From: an uncultured Bacteroidota bacterium
GTDB taxonomy: Bacteria; Bacteroidota; Bacteroidia; JABEUT01
Assembly (NCBI GenBank): GCA_903916255.1
Contig: CAIWVW010000134.1
Span: forward strand, 1 to 44,602
Direction of reading: 5' to 3'
DNA length: 44,602 nt
Under the pieces are notes generated by a model. That model worked only from the letters and a program-made list of their open reading frames with translations. It was not told the DNA's origin and made no database searches. This document shows, piece by piece, positions 5,834 through 39,858 of the stretch. Each line of letters opens with the position of its first letter. Positions within the stretch are counted from its first letter, which is position 1. The position numbers and the translations under genes are program-made.

Positions 5834-6451
5834 ATGGCAGAGTCAAACAATTCCCGGTTAGAAACCTTTTGCGACGGCGTGTTTGCTATTGCATTAACCC
5901 TGCTGATTATTGATATTAAGCTCCCTGCCTCGGCAAAAATAAATACCAGCACCGACCTTTGGATGGCTATTAAGGACCTTTCGCCCACTATTATTGCCTT
6001 CCTGCTGAGTTTTACCACTATACTTATTACCTGGGTGAGCCACCACAACATCATGAAATTGGTAAATAAATCGTCGCCGCAGTTTATTTACGCGAACGGG
6101 TTATTGTTGTTGTCTATTGTGTTTATTCCTTTCCCTACGGCTTTGCTGGGTACTTATATTTTAACCGACCATGCCGCTCCTGCGGTGGTTATTTATTCCT
6201 ATGTAAATGTATGGATGGCCATAAGCTGGAATTTACTTACGCGCGCGGCACTCCGGCCAAAACATCCATTAGTAACGAACGAAAGAGCTATGCTGGCCAT
6301 GCGCAAAATTCACCGAAACAGTTATTATTCTATAGCTATTAATACCTCCTTCGCAATATTGGCCTTTTGGTTTCCGCTGCTCGTTGCGCTTTTCATTTGT
6401 GTTATATGGGTCAGTTGGTTAATCATCGGTATGAATATTAAAGAAGGTTAA
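5834..6451 (+). CDS. TMEM175-type potassium channel family membrane protein
   Basis: The 205-aa protein has about six transmembrane helices and belongs to the TMEM175/DUF1211 family. The family signature in helix 1 reads RLETFCDGVFAIALTLLIIDIKLP, where the usual FSD is FCD. This family forms leak-type K+ channels in bacteria. It is divergent from the RRM gene. A second, distant family member lies at 9809-10489. The conserved cation-filter leucine and isoleucine region (IALTLLI) is present. Function is inferred from family only. Confidence 0.88.
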   Translation: MAESNNSRLETFCDGVFAIALTLLIIDIKLPASAKINTSTDLWMAIKDLSPTIIAFLLSFTTILITWVSHHNIMKLVNKSSPQFIYANGLLLLSIVFIPFPTALLGTYILTDHAAPAVVIYSYVNVWMAISWNLLTRAALRPKHPLVTNERAMLAMRKIHRNSYYSIAINTSFAILAFWFPLLVALFICVIWVSWLIIGMNIKEG

Positions 6452-34355: not shown

Positions 34356-34366
34356 AATTTACCCTG

Positions 34367-34437
34367 AGGTCCCGGGCGGATTCGAACCGCCGTACAAGGT
34401 TTTGCAGACCTCTGCCTAGCCACTCGGCCACAGGACC
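34367..34437 (-). tRNA. tRNA-Cys (GCA)
   Basis: On the minus strand the sequence folds with acceptor GGTCCTG/CGGGACC (the outer five pairs are Watson-Crick; the inner T-G and G-C pairs fit), discriminator T, D loop GAGTGGCTAGGC, anticodon arm GAGGT-CTGCAAA-ACCTT with anticodon GCA, and T arm GGCGG-TTCGAAT-CCGCC. Length 71 bases with no encoded CCA. A TACATTTG box (complement of 34525-34532) may be its promoter. The phage-like module begins just to the right. Confidence 0.95.
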
Positions 34438-34565: not shown

Positions 34566-35192
34566 TTATGTCAATTCCAGTTTCCCCCTCACCAAATAAA
34601 CAGCCAGTACATCCTCGCGCTTAATTTCCATGGGTTCAAACTTTTCATTGGCGCTTTTAAGCGTGTACATCGTTTTATCGCTATGGTGAGGATGAATATA
34701 CTTCAGCACAGAATAATCAGCAAGCACCACTATATGCGGCTCCCCGTAAGGAATATGGCTATGGTCATTTATTTTTTTACACACCACAATATCGCCATTG
34801 CAGTATTTCGGATACATGCTGTGTCCATTTACACGAACAGCAATAGAGCAATCTTTAAAATGCGGAATGGTAAGGAAATAAGAAGCGTTTTTCACCTGCT
34901 CGCCAAAGTTATTTACATTCCCTCCGGTTACATTCGCCTCATAAAACGGAATAGGATTTTCAGGTTCATTATCATATACGGGCTTTGGCTCCTTAACCAT
35001 TCCTCTTTGGGGCTTCACCGTGTCTAAATCCAATCCCATATGTCTAATTTTGTCTAAATAAAATTCATCCAGATATTCCTTTTTGTACAACTGATACATG
35101 TTCGACCTTACAGTGTTTAATTGCTTTGCAAACTCCTCTACAGTAAGCCCGCTGTTATTTACAACCTTTTTTAAATATTCTCCCTGATGCAT
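34566..35192 (-). CDS. Phage-type repressor: HTH plus S24/LexA-like peptidase
   Basis: The 208-aa protein has an N-terminal helix-turn-helix (about 5-48, LTVEEFAKQLNTVRSNMYQLYKKEY) and a C-terminal LexA/CI-type S24 fold. The catalytic Ser is in VNGHSMYPKY (S125) and the Lys is in SVLKYIH (K164). A canonical Ala-Gly or Cys-Gly cleavage site is not obvious; a GG lies at 90-91 in the usual linker area. It is divergent from the Cro-like HTH gene and probably controls it through the repeated TGTCTA operators. Its own coding region holds three more TGTCTAA copies (35021, 35041, 35051). Confidence 0.88.
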   Translation of the reverse strand: MHQGEYLKKVVNNSGLTVEEFAKQLNTVRSNMYQLYKKEYLDEFYLDKIRHMGLDLDTVKPQRGMVKEPKPVYDNEPENPIPFYEANVTGGNVNNFGEQVKNASYFLTIPHFKDCSIAVRVNGHSMYPKYCNGDIVVCKKINDHSHIPYGEPHIVVLADYSVLKYIHPHHSDKTMYTLKSANEKFEPMEIKREDVLAVYLVRGKLELT

Positions 35193-35296: not shown

Positions 35297-35425
35297 ATGA
35301 CAAAACCAACACTAACGACACAAATGCGCAGTTTGACACAACATGAGCGCGACCTGCAAATAGCTATTGCTCAGGAAATTGGCATGGCTGTGGTAACAAT
35401 TTACCAAGGGAACTACTTACATTGA
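35297..35425 (+). pseudogene. 5' half of a Cro-like HTH gene, split by the transposon
   Basis: ATG 35297 opens a reading frame for 37 native codons (MTKPTLTTQMRSLTQ...AQEIGMAVVTIYQ), then continues five codons into the transposon's left end (GNYLH) and stops at TGA 35423-35425. Its continuation lies at 39745-39858 on the far side of the element. Deleting 35408-39744 (the element plus one target copy) restores TIYQWAKYYPERLAK in frame, a 74-aa small HTH protein interrupted in the recognition helix. Divergence from the S24 repressor makes it a Cro- or CII-type phage regulator. The truncated product is unlikely to bind DNA properly. Confidence 0.88.
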
Positions 35426-35430
35426 AGGAC
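35400..35430. repeat. Left target duplication and terminal inverted repeat
   Basis: TTTACCAA (35400-35407) is the left copy of an 8-bp target duplication. The 23-bp inverted repeat follows at 35408-35430: GGGAACTACTTAC, then A, then TTGAAGGAC. It is the reverse complement of 39714-39736 except at the fourteenth base (A here, T there). Confidence 0.93.
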
Positions 35431-35517
35431 TAAACCTCAAAAATAGACAATTTTCCTGTCTAAATATTAGACAATACTTAGAAATCCTGTAAAATTTAAG
35501 GAAGAATATTAAGACAG

Positions 35518-35826
35518 TTATCTGGGTATTGGACAGCTCAATTCTTTGAACCTACTTATGTAGTGTCCAATATATTCAGCCATAGAAGGAGTATAGTTTG
35601 TTAAAACTAATCTACCCTTCATTTCATGGAAGCCATGTTTTTCAATTAAACTCCCGATTGAGGAATTTAAGAAAGAACTTGATAGAATATTACAATCTTT
35701 CAATGAAAGAACAATAGTGTCCCCGTTACTAATGATTTTATCCATTAATACAAAAAGCGTATAACCTTCTATGTTTGTAGAGGTTCCTGATACTACTTCT
35801 TTTATTTTTACTACTTCTTTTTTCAT
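35518..35826 (-). CDS. STAS-like protein (DUF4325)
   Basis: The 102-aa cytoplasmic protein fits DUF4325: IEGYTLFVLMDKIISNGDTIVLSLKDCNILSSSFLNSSIGSLIEKHG. This alternation of strand, helix, strand and the SSSFLNSS serine patch resembles STAS/anti-sigma-antagonist folds. DUF4325 proteins are often encoded beside GHKL ATPases, as here (69 bases downstream of one). By analogy with SpoIIAA/SpoIIAB, the pair could be a phospho-switch; that is inference. A -7 box TACATTTG (complement of 35857-35864) and an inverted repeat ACAAAAT...ATTTTGT (35833-35851) lie just upstream, so it may also have its own promoter. Confidence 0.75.
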   Translation of the reverse strand: MKKEVVKIKEVVSGTSTNIEGYTLFVLMDKIISNGDTIVLSLKDCNILSSSFLNSSIGSLIEKHGFHEMKGRLVLTNYTPSMAEYIGHYISRFKELSCPIPR

Positions 35827-35895
35827 TGGATAACAAAATTACACATTTTGTGAATACAAATGTATGATATTTGGATGAACGTAATATGATTTTTA

Positions 35896-36807
35896 TTATA
35901 TGATGTCAATTTCTTGTTCGGATTCAGCTTCAATATTTCTAAAGGTTGAGGTGTCAAATTTAATAATCAAATATGTGCCGGGAAATGAAAAACTAAGATT
36001 ATCTTTCATGTTTCTTACGTTATTATTGACGGTTTGTTCCGAATAATACGCTTTATTTGAAACAATTTCAATTTCTCCATTGGATGCCTTAACGTTAGAA
36101 AGGATATTATCTAACCCAAAACCTCTATTGTGAGGCTTAGAATACGTAGAAAAACCTTGAAATAAAGCCATTTCAAGGGCTTTAACATCATTTAACCTTT
36201 GTTTCCCTGCTTTATTTAGATATTCATTGACATTATTAGGAATACCTACGCCAAAATCACATATAGATATTGTGAGTTTGCATTTATTTGGAATATACTG
36301 AGTTGATATAAATCCGCTAATGGGTGAATTTGCATGGTCTGAAATATTATTTAAAGCCTCAACAACAGTTAACCCCAATGAAGTTAAATCTTTGCCTGTA
36401 AAATGGGATTTATAGTAATTTTGAATTGTAATCCCAAAAGCATCAACATATTCAGGTTTAAGTTGCCATAATGGCATGGTATTATTATAGGTTTGAAGGC
36501 TAAGGCAGTAGTTTTTATCAAATTCGCTTCCCCAATAATAAGCAAACTTAGAATATTTCAAAAATTTTTCAATACTGGATTTTGGTAAACATTTGAAACT
36601 AATTGAATTATTAGTTTGTTTATATTCTTCAATTACACAAGCCAAAGAAACAATATGGAAGGGACATAAAAAATCTGCATTGGTAAAATCAAATATATAA
36701 TGGCGACGAAATATTGAACGTTTATTTCGTGCATCAATTATGAACCTTAACCAATCAACAAGATGTCCTGCCCTACAATTAGGTATAGTGATTACTGTCT
36801 TTAACAT
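35896..36807 (-). CDS. GHKL (histidine kinase-like) ATPase with N-terminal domain
   Basis: The 303-aa protein has a Bergerat-fold ATPase domain at about 135-290: N box VVEALNNISDHA (E150, N154), G1 box DFGVGIP (D184-G188) and G2 box NRGFGLDNI (G229, G231). No DHp helix or phospho-accepting histidine is evident, so it is not a classical kinase. It is closer to SpoIIAB/RsbW-like or MutL-like ATPases of conflict loci. The N-terminal 120 residues are alpha/beta and may be a STAS-like or partner-binding domain (HYIFDFTNADFLCPFHIVSLA). It has a TACGTTTG -7 box (complement of 36820-36827) and sits upstream of the DUF4325 gene. Biological role unknown. Confidence 0.82.
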   Translation of the reverse strand: MLKTVITIPNCRAGHLVDWLRFIIDARNKRSIFRRHYIFDFTNADFLCPFHIVSLACVIEEYKQTNNSISFKCLPKSSIEKFLKYSKFAYYWGSEFDKNYCLSLQTYNNTMPLWQLKPEYVDAFGITIQNYYKSHFTGKDLTSLGLTVVEALNNISDHANSPISGFISTQYIPNKCKLTISICDFGVGIPNNVNEYLNKAGKQRLNDVKALEMALFQGFSTYSKPHNRGFGLDNILSNVKASNGEIEIVSNKAYYSEQTVNNNVRNMKDNLSFSFPGTYLIIKFDTSTFRNIEAESEQEIDII

Positions 36808-36872
36808 ATTTTATTTATGCAAACGTAGCAAAATATATTGCTATGATGCTTAAATAAAAATATTCTGTAAAA

Positions 36873-37007
36873 TTATTCCCCAGTTTTTTTGACTTTCTTT
36901 TTGGGCTTTTTTATATCGGGCTTAACAGATGCTTTCAGTACATCCAAGAAAGTCCCGTTAATAGGGTACTGAATATCCAATTTACTTTTTTTCTTAGCCT
37001 TCTTCAT
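36873..37007 (-). CDS. 44-aa lysine-rich protein
   Basis: The ORF from ATG 37007 to TAA 36873-36875 encodes a 44-aa protein with basic ends (MKKAKKKSKLDIQ and KKPKKKVKKTGE) around YPINGTFLDVLKASVK. It is well placed between the GHKL and HEPN-like genes. A TATCTTTG -7 box (complement of 37012-37019) lies so close to the ATG that the transcript would be nearly leaderless. It could be an antitoxin-like or nucleic-acid-binding peptide. Its short coding length makes the call tentative. Confidence 0.55.
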   Translation of the reverse strand: MKKAKKKSKLDIQYPINGTFLDVLKASVKPDIKKPKKKVKKTGE

Positions 37008-37040
37008 TTTGCAAAGATATAATATTTGTATGTTTGTTTT

Positions 37041-37658
37041 ATGGGGAAGAAAAATAAAAAGAAGGAATTTGAATTTCCTTTAATAGATGAATCCGAAATT
37101 GGCAATGAGCATGATATTAAATGTGCTGCTTACAGAGGTAAAGTGATTCATTACATGATAAACATTGAGACGACAACTGAATCCATTATTCAGGTTTATT
37201 ATTTTGGTATCCCTCGAAAAGATTCTTCAAGAGATAGGCTTAACGAATTCATGCGAAAACAACAAGAGTTTGTGAGTTCTGTAATTTCAAAGGATAGATT
37301 TTCTTTCATGTTTAAGTTTGAAATATTAACATTTATCTTGAAAAATCATTACAAGGACTTCTTAAAAGAGCATGATTATTTCCTTAAAACATTTGAAGAA
37401 TTAATAAACTTTAGAAATAAGTTTGCTCATTATAATTACATTAATTATTCTCTGCCTCTTAACCCTAATAGGATTGCGCTTTTATATCCCACTACGACAA
37501 GAAGTGAAGTAGCATTTACTACTGTTGATGTTACCGATAAGTTTATGAAGGAGTTTTTTGGAAAATATCAAGTCCTTCGTAAAGACCTAAAAGAAATTGA
37601 ATCTGATATAACAAAAAGGGCTATAACTGAATCGCCGGACAGCGTTAGACAGAAATAA
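37041..37658 (+). CDS. HEPN-like protein with RNKFAH motif
   Basis: From ATG 37041 (a TTG at 37026 is in frame) this is a 205-aa protein with a basic start (MGKKNKKKEFEF). A helical region (about 60-150) contains EFEILTFILKNHYKDF and then LINFRNKFAHYNY, with R125 and H130 in the R-x4-H arrangement of HEPN RNases and HEPN-like toxins. HEPN proteins often cut RNA in toxin-antitoxin and antiphage systems. The C-terminal part has a beta segment (NRIALLYPTTTRSEVAFTTVD). It is the only plus-strand gene in the transposon and is divergent from the 44-aa gene. Without an alignment the HEPN link is suggestive only. Confidence 0.65.
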   Translation: MGKKNKKKEFEFPLIDESEIGNEHDIKCAAYRGKVIHYMINIETTTESIIQVYYFGIPRKDSSRDRLNEFMRKQQEFVSSVISKDRFSFMFKFEILTFILKNHYKDFLKEHDYFLKTFEELINFRNKFAHYNYINYSLPLNPNRIALLYPTTTRSEVAFTTVDVTDKFMKEFFGKYQVLRKDLKEIESDITKRAITESPDSVRQK

Positions 37659-37672
37659 CCCTCCTGCAAAGA

Positions 37673-37690
37673 TAGGTTAATCTTAACCTA
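37673..37690. terminator. Perfect 8-bp hairpin between convergent genes
   Basis: TAGGTTAA (37673-37680) and TTAACCTA (37683-37690) form a perfect stem with a 2-base loop, overlapping the transposase stop. It lacks a good T-run, so it may be a weak terminator or a pause for the convergent HEPN-like and transposase transcripts. Confidence 0.4.
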
Positions 37691-38606
37691 CCAATCTTTT
37701 CCAAGTCAATCTACTTTCAGACTGTCGTAAGAAATTTTCAAACCTTTCATCCTCTCCCAAGTGCCTTGTATTATAACGGGCGCAAAACTCATCCAAATAG
37801 CGGTTAATGTGCTTTTCGCTTGTATAGTGGTATATTCCATAGATACCCCGTTTAAGGTTAGCCCAAAAGCCCTCTATTGTGTTTGTAGTTACATCCCCAT
37901 CAACATAAATCTGTAAGATATGCCTAACGGATTTATGGTTATACTTTTTCCCTACTTCAATATAAGCCCCATGTTCATCCGTATGCAGATTTGAGCCCAA
38001 TTCAATATGCTCTGTTATTACTGGCGAAATAACTTCCCGTGTCGGGGCTTTAATTCTTTGAGCATAAACCCTGCCGCCTCTTTCCACTAATCCGAGCATT
38101 GCAATTTTGTCCCCTACCCCTGTAACACCTTTTCTTTTGTGTTTATGGCGGTTCTTATCCCTGCCTCCTACATAGGTCTCATCCGCTTCAACAGTACCCT
38201 TGAGCATTACAGGTTCTTTTGCCCTTAGCATTTCCCTGATACGGTGCAATAAATACCACGCTGTTTTCTGTGTTATGTTTAAATCCCTGCTAAGTTGCAA
38301 AGATGAGATTCCCTTTTTGTGTGCTGTCTGCAAGTAGATAGCGGCAAACCATGTACGCAATGGGATATGGCTTTGCTCAAAGATTGTACCGACTTTAACG
38401 GTGAACTTCTTATGACAAAGTTTTTCAGAACACTTGAAACCTTTTGCAGTTCTGTACGGTGTTTTGAAACTGCCACAATGAGGACACACGGGCTGACCGT
38501 TCCACCTTACTTGCTCGTAAAATGAAATACAGGTTTTTTCATCCTTAAAGTAATCCAGTAATTCAATTACGGATTTAAAGTTAAATATGTTCTTAATATT
38601 TGTCAT
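37683..38606 (-). CDS. IS1595-family (ISXO2-like) transposase
   Basis: The 307-aa protein begins with a zinc ribbon (C41, C44, C59, C64 in CPHCGSFKTPY...KCSEKLCHKKF). A helix-turn-helix segment follows (LQLSRDLNITQKTAWYLLHRI), then the ISXO2/IS1595 RNase H-type domain. That domain has VEADETYVGG (D142), HTDEHGAY (D210) and TTNTIEGFWANLKRG (E245 as the third catalytic candidate). The length fits a full-size family member with no frameshift, so it may be active. It is the only transposase in the 35408-39736 element and is presumed to move it. Confidence 0.92.
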   Translation of the reverse strand: MTNIKNIFNFKSVIELLDYFKDEKTCISFYEQVRWNGQPVCPHCGSFKTPYRTAKGFKCSEKLCHKKFTVKVGTIFEQSHIPLRTWFAAIYLQTAHKKGISSLQLSRDLNITQKTAWYLLHRIREMLRAKEPVMLKGTVEADETYVGGRDKNRHKHKRKGVTGVGDKIAMLGLVERGGRVYAQRIKAPTREVISPVITEHIELGSNLHTDEHGAYIEVGKKYNHKSVRHILQIYVDGDVTTNTIEGFWANLKRGIYGIYHYTSEKHINRYLDEFCARYNTRHLGEDERFENFLRQSESRLTWKRLVG

Positions 38607-38647
38607 AATTCTATTATAAGGACTGTGATAACTAAGTAATGTTTGTT

Positions 38648-39544
38648 TTATTGTTTATATGTGTTATCATCATTTAATTTCTTGGCAATACTTTGTGCTA
38701 TCCTTTTGTGTTCACCATCATTCACAAAACACTCTAATAAATAATCAAACAAATCAAAAATATCCTTTGCAGCCTTGTATTTACCATCAATAGGAATAGT
38801 ATTACATTCATCTTCCTTTTTAGAGTGTACTCCATCTGAAAGTTTTGCATATAGCAAAGAGAACGTATTAACCTCAATATCTTTACGCCTTGCGCCTAAT
38901 GGAAGAAAGTTATCCATTTTATCCATTAGCGGGGTTGTTTTAAAATCTATTGCATATTGTTTTAAAATTTCATTACATTCGGCTGTTTGTTGCGCAATTA
39001 ATATCCGTTTTGCGACATCCTCTAAAACCCTTCTTAGATAAGCATAGGAAGCAATACCAAAACCATCATAATGACAAATTTTAGCATACTTATACATTTT
39101 TAATTCTTCGGACATTAAGAATTTTTTAACGTAAAATGGCGGTTCTAAATTAAACTTAGGATATTGCCCAATCTTCTGCACGGTTGTAATTGAAGTAATC
39201 AATTTCGGTGGGGTTACACCTTTGTCATAAACAGTGTCCTTTTTTATTTGTAAAATCATAGTCATTTTGTACTGCTTACAATTTTGGCATAATCCATAAT
39301 AGATTTGAGCAGTAACGGTACTTGAAACGTTCCCAGAGTTATAAGAGTATTGGGTGAATCCGTTTTGCCCTGATGTATTCGCATGAGGTATAAAAAGCTC
39401 AAAGCCTTCCTGCCCTTGACATATATCACAATGAAACTTAAAGGGAATACAGAAATGTGTTTTGTCTGTAAAGCCGCCAACTTCCTTTTCGGAATATAAG
39501 GGAGCAGAAGATAAAAATACTGATATGTCCTTTCTTTCATCCAT
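38648..39544 (-). CDS. DUF4145-domain protein with zinc ribbon
   Basis: From ATG 39544 this is a 298-aa protein. The N-terminal half has a zinc-ribbon-like CxxC...CxxC set (C39, C42, C86, C89 in CDIC and CQNC). The C-terminal half is the DUF4145 helical domain with SYAYLRRVLEDVAKRILIAQQ and LSDGVHSKKEDECN. DUF4145 proteins are frequent cargo of mobile elements and have been likened to HEPN-like helical bundles. The frame is open to 39613, but a TATATTTG -7 box (complement of 39574-39581) lies inside that stretch, so the shorter start is preferred. Role unknown. Confidence 0.8.
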   Translation of the reverse strand: MDERKDISVFLSSAPLYSEKEVGGFTDKTHFCIPFKFHCDICQGQEGFELFIPHANTSGQNGFTQYSYNSGNVSSTVTAQIYYGLCQNCKQYKMTMILQIKKDTVYDKGVTPPKLITSITTVQKIGQYPKFNLEPPFYVKKFLMSEELKMYKYAKICHYDGFGIASYAYLRRVLEDVAKRILIAQQTAECNEILKQYAIDFKTTPLMDKMDNFLPLGARRKDIEVNTFSLLYAKLSDGVHSKKEDECNTIPIDGKYKAAKDIFDLFDYLLECFVNDGEHKRIAQSIAKKLNDDNTYKQ

Positions 39545-39711
39545 AAGTATGTTTTTAATAAAGTTTATTATCACAAATATACGATACCTAATAAGGTAAT
39601 ATAGACTTTTCATTTTTCGTAATTTTTTCGATTGTTAATAGACACATTTATACGGTTTTTTAGACGCCTGAAATTGTGTGTGATTTTGTCTGATTATTAG
39701 ACGTTTTAGAC

Positions 39712-39858
39712 ATGTCCTTCAAAGTAAGTAGTTCCCTTTACCAATGGGCAAAATATTATCCGGAACGCCTGGCTAAGAATCCGGCAGCGTTGAAAGTAAT
39801 TCTGAAATATATGAAAGAAACAAAGCGGGAAAATAAAAAGCAATTATCAAAAATATAA
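39712..39858 (+). pseudogene. 3' half of the split Cro-like HTH gene
   Basis: The native part is 39745-39858 (37 codons plus stop, WAKYYPERLAKNPAALKV...). A frame opening at ATG 39712 inside the right inverted repeat leads into it as MSFKVSSSLYQWAK, which could give a 48-aa fragment lacking the first helices. It joins the left half at 35297-35407 without loss or gain of a base once the element and one target copy are removed. Confidence 0.85.
39714..39744. repeat. Right terminal inverted repeat and target duplication
   Basis: GTCCTTCAA then A then GTAAGTAGTTCCC (39714-39736) is the complement of the left end except for one base, followed by the target duplication copy TTTACCAA (39737-39744). 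Inside it the sequence continues with TAGACG, TAGAC and TAGACA motifs at about 39661-39712. Confidence 0.93.

Follow-up and report, generated by a model that had tools for sequence, protein, structure and literature searches.

A small basic protein conserved in a clade of cargo-carrying IS1595-family transposons of Bacteroidota

Some transposable elements encode a second protein beside the transposase, as do IS66 and IS21 with their accessory proteins and IS1 with InsA. Transposases of the IS1595 family join ends that start with GG across 8 bp, and those of the Tn3 family belong to a different family. Members of the IS1595 family have been described with a single transposase gene (PMC8101967), and insertion sequences that carry passenger genes are termed tIS (PMC7986276; PMC12888890, which cites Siguier 2009 for the term). 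In the Tn3 family, toxin-antitoxin pairs carried by transposons appear, as the title of one report has it, to be integral to the transposition module (PMC7157771). The subject here is a cargo-carrying IS1595-family transposon on contig CAIWVW010000134.1 of an uncultured Bacteroidota bacterium; the whole contig of 44,602 nucleotides is called the window. Passenger-carrying insertion sequences are already known, and the unexpected part is a conserved tiny basic protein, called the companion below.

The unit in the window is a single IS1595-family transposon with cargo, inserted with an 8-bp target duplication. It spans positions 35408-39736, a length of 4,329 bp, between 23-bp inverted ends. The left end, GGGAACTACTTACATTGAAGGAC, is identical to the reverse complement of the right end at 22 of 23 positions, and the octamer TTTACCAA is a perfect duplicate. 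Ends that start with GG and a target duplication of 8 bp are the pattern of the IS1595 family (PMC8101967). The unit holds one transposase gene, which is full-length; its product matches the DDE_Tnp_IS1595 domain over the full profile and has an N-terminal zinc ribbon (Table 1). The residues D142, D210, N242/E245 and K252 are taken to be catalytic from the family motif; among 96 aligned transposases they are found in 96 (D142), 95 (D210), 91 (N242), 94 (E245) and 91 (K252).

When the two flanks are joined at the octamer, a reading frame of 74 amino acid residues results, and a homologue of this gene runs unbroken across the junction in two other species of the genus (G006 and G002). Because the joined flanks give this frame and congeneric genomes hold the gene uninterrupted, the unit is an insertion. 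In G006 the homologue aligns over 170 nucleotides with 79% identity and no gaps across the junction, and with 76% identity as protein over residues 6-71. That locus is damaged: a deletion fuses the target gene at about residue 5 to what is left of a repressor gene, namely its final 51 residues (84% identity). The homologue in G002 is distant (34% over residues 3-73 as protein) but whole, and its neighbour is a repressor homologue of full length (27% identity over residues 1-207). The transposon landed in a small regulatory-type gene beside an S24-type repressor.

A first-pass annotation, made from the letters alone, had proposed an IS1595-type transposon with inverted ends and an 8-bp duplication, had assigned the ends to the enclosed transposase and had suggested a comparison with an empty-site relative. 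The near-identical ends, the perfect octamer and the single full transposase bear out the first proposal, and the uninterrupted genes of G006 and G002 supply the comparison. The assignment of the ends holds as well, since ends of the same type flank relatives of the transposase, one of them in a second element of the window's own genome. This second element (L057, 1958-4433) has the target duplication ATTCTTTG, a transposase 65% identical to that of the window, a HEPN-like gene and the companion. A third element in the genome (L062) is without the small basic protein.

It could be supposed that chance inverted repeats happen to surround a genomic island, with no transposon involved. Nothing was found in favour of this, and there is practically no room for it, as it is already refuted by the uninterrupted relatives of the target gene, the duplicated octamer and the matching ends on relatives. 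The frequency of chance pairs was estimated by pairing left and right flanks at random across different loci. Only 3 of 40 such pairings yielded any pair with a terminal inverted repeat (TIR) of at least 15/25 and a target-site duplication (TSD) of at least 7/8, and the best pair in each of the three had a TIR of 15-16 and a TSD of 7.

Related elements were mapped in three sets of loci, with end-calling rules that varied between them. Enclosing end pairs were found in 28 of 48 related genome-contig loci (TIR at least 15/22, TSD at least 6), 25 of them with a perfect octamer. A survey of 392 genomes of the phylum Bacteroidota gave 58 places, from which 40 loci were fetched; 26 of these have end pairs (TIR at least 15/25, TSD at least 7). 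One candidate in this set, L134, was dropped, as its TIR of 15 and TSD of 7 resemble the chance pairs. A further 26 elements came from 33 additional loci, found by searching 395 genomes of the class (TIR at least 16 with a TSD of 8, or TIR at least 18 with a TSD of at least 7). Loci without an accepted end pair, some of them cut by contig ends, were left out of the element count (20/48, 14/40 including L134, and 7/33).

With the window and 11 other loci included, 92 elements were mapped in all. Of these, 87 are longer than 1.3 kb and five are bare (L139, L140, L151, L152 and L211). Imperfect octamers occur in L018 (6/8), in L034, L043, L092 and L167 (7/8 each) and in L098 (3/8). The 1.5-kb element L059 contains a short transposase and the companion only, and L150 (5.6 kb), whose genome also has bare copies of its insertion sequence, is possibly a false pair or a composite one. 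IS1595 elements with cargo are of a known kind, and among the mapped elements cargo is the rule.

The companion has 44 residues in the window and about 33-71 across the lineage, when read from the first start codon. Searches of Pfam, NCBIfam and PHROG gave noise-level matches only (best E-values 0.0056, 0.056 and 0.028). The structural model has a single helix at residues 20-28, of low confidence; this short helix is amphipathic, with the sequence GTFLDVLKAS in the window. A profile built from 9 sequences detects the companion in most loci of the lineage. At a score of at least 8 it marks 42 of 66 elements, with the training rows included, but just 2 of 130 flank segments. A regular expression was tried and given up in favour of the profile; it was too narrow, matching 15 of the 66 elements against 2 matches in 525 kb of flank.

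The companion is specific to a lineage: it is conserved with this Bacteroidota transposase clade, whose members carry variable cargo. On a tree of 96 transposases it was scored present in 64. This label requires 12 changes on the tree, compared with 27.0 in shuffles, and none of 500 shuffles was as low. In the window's branch (support 93, not starred) it is found in 31 of 31 members, all by score, and in the next starred branch around this clade in 42 of 48. The first-pass annotation had counted the 44-residue protein as one of five passengers; its presence throughout the window's clade makes it instead a lineage-conserved protein of the element.

The label was given at a score of at least 6, with overlap of passenger open reading frames (ORFs) allowed, and a hand list of 9 rows was added; 61 rows pass by score and 3 of the 64 by hand alone. 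Single calls, such as those in L155, L142 and L202, are open to error. The short transposase of L059 kept that element off the tree. Four bare elements from Hyphomicrobiales plasmids (L099, L177, L181 and L182, with a perfect octamer in L099 only) and the cargo-bearing L174 were added.

A threshold fixed beforehand was applied to the new Bacteroidota loci. The companion was found inside 11 of 26 elements (13 when overlapping ORFs are allowed) and in the flanks of 0 of 26; below the threshold, L190, L192, L199 and L210 have look-alikes by eye. The companion profile (A1) was also run against the 392 genomes, where it matched 11 places in 8 genomes. At E<1e-6, 6 of 6 matches lie by an IS1595 transposase; overall 7 of 11 do, and 3 of those are rows of the alignment itself. 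Companion-like ORFs occur in five alphaproteobacterial loci too, but those loci helped to define the motif. Homology of companions across clades is suggested by a 13-residue pattern and by position; outside the window's clade, the likeness could be convergent.

Evidence for selection on the companion comes from whole-ORF comparisons. In 7 close pairs, the nonsynonymous divergence (dN) is 0.03-0.21 and the synonymous divergence (dS) 0.57-2.96; two more pairs have saturated dS, with dN of 0.15 and 0.26. Whole-ORF comparison is better evidence here than codon-position identity, which is inflated because the blocks were chosen by protein motif.

The place of the companion within the element is also regular. 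Of 61 elements, 25 have it immediately downstream of the transposase, and a further 23 have it no more than 150 nucleotides from an element end; counted separately, 29 companions lie that close to an end, 28 of which are oriented towards it. Its divergence tracks that of the transposase (Spearman 0.58 in 61 elements), with coefficients of 0.69 when the two are adjacent and 0.49 in the 36 elements where they are not; in each of these cases 0 of 2000 permutations was as high. Inside the 31-row clade the correlation is 0.27 (6/2000 permutations). The companion persists while the other cargo changes between elements.

Because the companion is kept clade-wide, independently of cargo and mostly by the transposase or the ends, it is best read as a function of the element. 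Within the unit transposon, the companion on balance probably acts as a further factor encoded by the transposon, one that assists or regulates the transposase. The transposase would bind the GG-starting ends through the family's usual chemistry, with D142, D210, N242/E245 and K252 acting to free them and join them across an 8-bp stagger. Everything between competent ends would move along; since anything placed there can ride, the cargo is explained. The companion may bind the transposase, the end DNA or both, and so aid synapsis or restrain activity. The HEPN-like, GHKL-DUF4325 and CxxC-protein genes would then be exchangeable passengers of a conflict or regulation type, benefiting the host or the element.

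Alternatively, the companion may be an antitoxin or addiction factor for passengers such as the HEPN-like protein, kept because its loss kills the host. Of the 31 elements in the window's clade, 12 do have a HEPN-like gene (in L023 split into two frames), as does L192, and toxin-antitoxin-type cargo recurs (SocA_Panacea 4 and PIN 2 among 126 cargo proteins). The data speak against a HEPN antitoxin, because the other 19 of the 31 clade members have the companion and no detected HEPN-like gene. Moreover, the companion stays while the cargo changes, and its divergence is uncorrelated with that of the HEPN-like protein (0.11 in 11 rows; 469/2000 permutations as high). An antitoxin is for these reasons unlikely.

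A second alternative is that the companion solely controls the expression or stability of the transposase, as a repressor-like small protein with no part in strand transfer. IS1 InsA is the model for a small repressor-like protein of this kind. The companion is indeed small and basic, and in the 25 elements where it is directly behind the transposase it lies on the same strand. Against this, 23 of the 61 companions are found by an element end rather than immediately after the transposase, and the model has one helix only; neither point is decisive, and pure control of expression is rather doubtful as a full account. A role of the companion with the transposase is most likely from the patterns of conservation and position, and the data choose not firmly between assistance and pure regulation.

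The simplest alternative is an ordinary passenger-carrying IS1595 element in which the small ORF is a functionless hitchhiker. Such tIS are established (PMC7986276, PMC12888890), and elements without the companion exist. A hitchhiker should hardly be found in 31 of 31 members of a clade, have a dN far lower than its dS or be conserved between elements that differ in their other genes, and this explanation is quite improbable.

Several observations weigh against a role for the companion in transposition. In a starred, cargo-bearing sister branch it is present in only 1 of 11 members, and that one is doubtful; likewise, no companion is recognisable in any of the 9 bare elements, which include several near-copies. 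The bare elements and the sister clade imply that the chemistry of IS1595 transposition does not in itself require it. At the pre-fixed threshold, 13 distant plasmid loci (taken with 5-kb flanks) gave 0/13, with one match outside the element stretch; an end pair was called in 8 of the 13, with a perfect octamer just in L174, and the calls for L172 and L180 seem spurious. Strict recall was 11/26 in the new Bacteroidota elements and 0/7 in the loci of that set without mapped ends. The companion model is poor (predicted local distance difference test, pLDDT, 67). Four of the 11 profile matches are not by a transposase: that in G229 has an end-like sequence nearby and lies on a short contig, and those in G136, G152 and contig C66 of the window's own genome stand alone. 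In the 11 rows with both companion and HEPN-like protein the correlation of companion and transposase is weak (0.28; 133/2000), the divergence of the HEPN-like protein tracks the transposase as well (0.61 in 12 rows; 2/2000), and linkage alone could explain part of the co-divergence of companion and transposase.

A universal companion on all IS1595 elements was considered and dropped in view of the distant plasmid loci, whose transposases are about 30-38% identical. The C66 ORF (L080, about 5853-6002; E 2.2e-4) has neither a transposase nor credible ends nearby.

A bolder form of the assisting-factor explanation is that a large IS1595 clade is truly two-component, in that the tiny basic protein is required for, or tunes, the mobilisation of long cargo-laden elements. 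This is put forward tentatively, as something that may well turn out otherwise. If the clade does keep a second tiny protein under purifying selection while its other cargo changes, the mobilisation machinery of its elements has a missing part. The protein would represent a new class of transposition accessory factor, overlooked by annotation owing to its small size.

The features of the locus are given in Table 1.

Table 1. Coordinates of the transposon, its genes and the interrupted target gene in the window
Feature	Coordinates	Strand	Evidence
Interrupted target gene, 5' part	35297-35407	+	74-aa frame when joined to 39745-39858; uninterrupted homologues in G006, G002
Left 8-bp target duplication TTTACCAA	35400-35407	none	
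Left terminal inverted repeat	35408-35430	+	22/23 to right end; same-type ends on relatives
DUF4325 (STAS-like) protein, 102 aa, passenger	35518-35826	-	PF14213 8.5e-10
GHKL-type ATPase, 303 aa, passenger, paired with DUF4325	35896-36807	-	HATPase_c 1.6e-5
Basic companion protein, 44 aa, conserved in transposon lineage	36873-37007	-	
HEPN-like protein, 205 aa, recurrent passenger, start set at ATG 37041	37041-37658	+	Element relatives; invariant RNxxAH; model pLDDT 76, mostly helical
IS1595-family DDE transposase, 307 aa, with zinc ribbon	37683-38606	-	PF12762 2.3e-38; PF12760 2.1e-9; NF033547 6.5e-58
CxxC-pair protein (pairs read from sequence), no known family, passenger	38648-39544	-	Alternative start 39613
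Right terminal inverted repeat	39714-39736	-	22/23 to left end
Right 8-bp target duplication TTTACCAA	39737-39744	none	
Interrupted target gene, 3' part	39745-39858	+	Joined frame; uninterrupted homologues in G006, G002

Four of the five genes that the first-pass annotation had listed beside the transposase are present: those for DUF4325, the GHKL-type ATPase, the HEPN-like protein and the 44-residue basic protein. The fifth label, DUF4145, finds no support; the CxxC-pair protein (38648-39547) has no reported Pfam family even with E<=10 allowed. The DUF4325 protein is over the gathering cut-off (38.7 against 23 bits), whereas the GHKL protein falls just under that of HATPase_c (25.7 against 26.4 bits), a weak but consistent match. 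Relatives of the GHKL protein occur in 6 other genomes; tblastn places a DUF4325 gene next to them in 3 of the 6 (Pfam confirms one of these), and a fourth case was recognised by eye. The two genes are neighbours in other genomes too, where no transposase lies within 1.5 kb; in the window the pair lies inside a transposon. A link of the GHKL protein to the defence protein DrmA was rejected, as the PADLOC match (4.1e-10) covers just the ATPase part of a 1750-position model.

The label HEPN-like is suggested by an invariant motif and a weak fold resemblance. The motif R-N-x-x-A-H (R123, N124, A127, H128), which contains the R-x4-H of HEPN proteins, is invariant in 12 of 12 aligned relatives, one of which matches HEPN_Apea at E 0.0034, under the cut-off. 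Foldseek gave no match to the model at E<=0.001, and the profile had no match among PDB sequences. In VIA-align the top match is IKK2 (Z 6.8), followed by the MntA-HpeT toxin-antitoxin complex (6m6u, Z 6.0) and MtlR (3brj, Z 6.0), with Csx1 (6qzt) at Z 3.8, all within the range of common helical arrangements. A profile search of the 392 genomes found 8 places in 6 genomes. Three are in the window's own genome, each near an IS1595 transposase, whole or as a fragment; three of three inspected in other genomes have no transposase, and two weaker matches (G362, G118) are outside those inspected. Contig C35 of the same genome (L238) has a transposase fragment with a HEPN-like gene nearby, a decayed further element.

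The HEPN-like and GHKL-DUF4325 genes are passengers in the ordinary sense, because they are also found away from the transposase. The first-pass annotation had treated the gene set as one mobile unit. The duplication and the uninterrupted target relatives uphold this for the window. No further copy of the whole set or element turned up when the DNA of 11 genomes of the family was searched, and parts of the set occur independently. Free-standing cargo parts do not refute the unit, because the duplication and the uninterrupted relatives show insertion.

Cargo elsewhere in the mapped elements is diverse. Pfam was run on 126 of 202 cargo ORFs, a tally that covers 25 of 42 families. Besides the SocA_Panacea and PIN proteins mentioned above, it gave, among others, N6_N4_Mtase (7), P63C (7), HNH (3), N6_Mtase (2), KilA-N (2), D12 methylase (2) and Mrr_cat (2). 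In Bacteroidota, elements of this kind, a few kb long, are vehicles for methylases, nucleases, Panacea, PIN and HEPN-like proteins, which is relevant to the spread of conflict genes.

A cluster of 8 related cargo ORFs includes that of L147, a methylase joined to an HNH nuclease. L045, L137, L144, L145, L146, L147 and L153 share a related large ORF, which in L147 is a compact restriction-modification-like gene on a transposon. Another cluster, of 7 ORFs, includes a P63C protein in L190; in a companion-less sister branch (L194, L200, L201, L204 and L208) a P63C-type protein of this cluster recurs beside the transposase. L062 and L206 of that branch share another protein, KilA-N-like by eye. On a Mesorhizobium plasmid, L095 has methylase-like and ParB-like proteins (by eye) between IS1595 ends, and a small basic ORF opposes the transposase.

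The S24-type repressor that adjoins the target gene lies at 34566-35192 (PF00717), beside a tRNA-Cys gene (34366-34437) less than 1 kb from the target. This neighbourhood suggests a prophage-like island, and the stretch to the right of the tRNA-Cys gene may be such an island integrated at that tRNA. No relatives of the interrupted gene were found in viral_contigs. In G006 (L227, 4500-5450), a fragment of an IS1595 transposase lies about 200 nucleotides beyond the decayed fusion of target and repressor. Three Mucilaginibacter elements (L013, L014 and L023) have nearly the same target octamer (CTCTCAAG, CTCTCAAG and CTCTCGAG), which in L013 sits within the inverted repeat CCCCTCTTGAGAGGGG; some elements of this type may prefer terminator-like palindromes as targets.

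Among the literature matches listed, no title or opening of an abstract concerned a conserved small IS1595 protein or the gene set of the window. The closest described systems are the tIS of the IS1595 family, with which the window element shares the transposase family, the zinc ribbon, the GG-starting ends, the 8-bp duplication and the single transposase gene. It differs in the conserved second small protein of its lineage, whereas the family description consulted speaks of a single transposase gene (PMC8101967). Like the Tn3-family transposons with toxin-antitoxin pairs, going by the title of that report (PMC7157771), it carries small conflict-type genes, HEPN included. In the present lineage, by contrast, the small gene that stays constant encodes one basic protein and not a toxin-antitoxin pair. 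With the accessory proteins of IS66 and IS21 and with InsA of IS1, likened here by description only, the companion has in common that it is a second protein encoded by the element, and it differs in being much smaller, judged by their generally known sizes.

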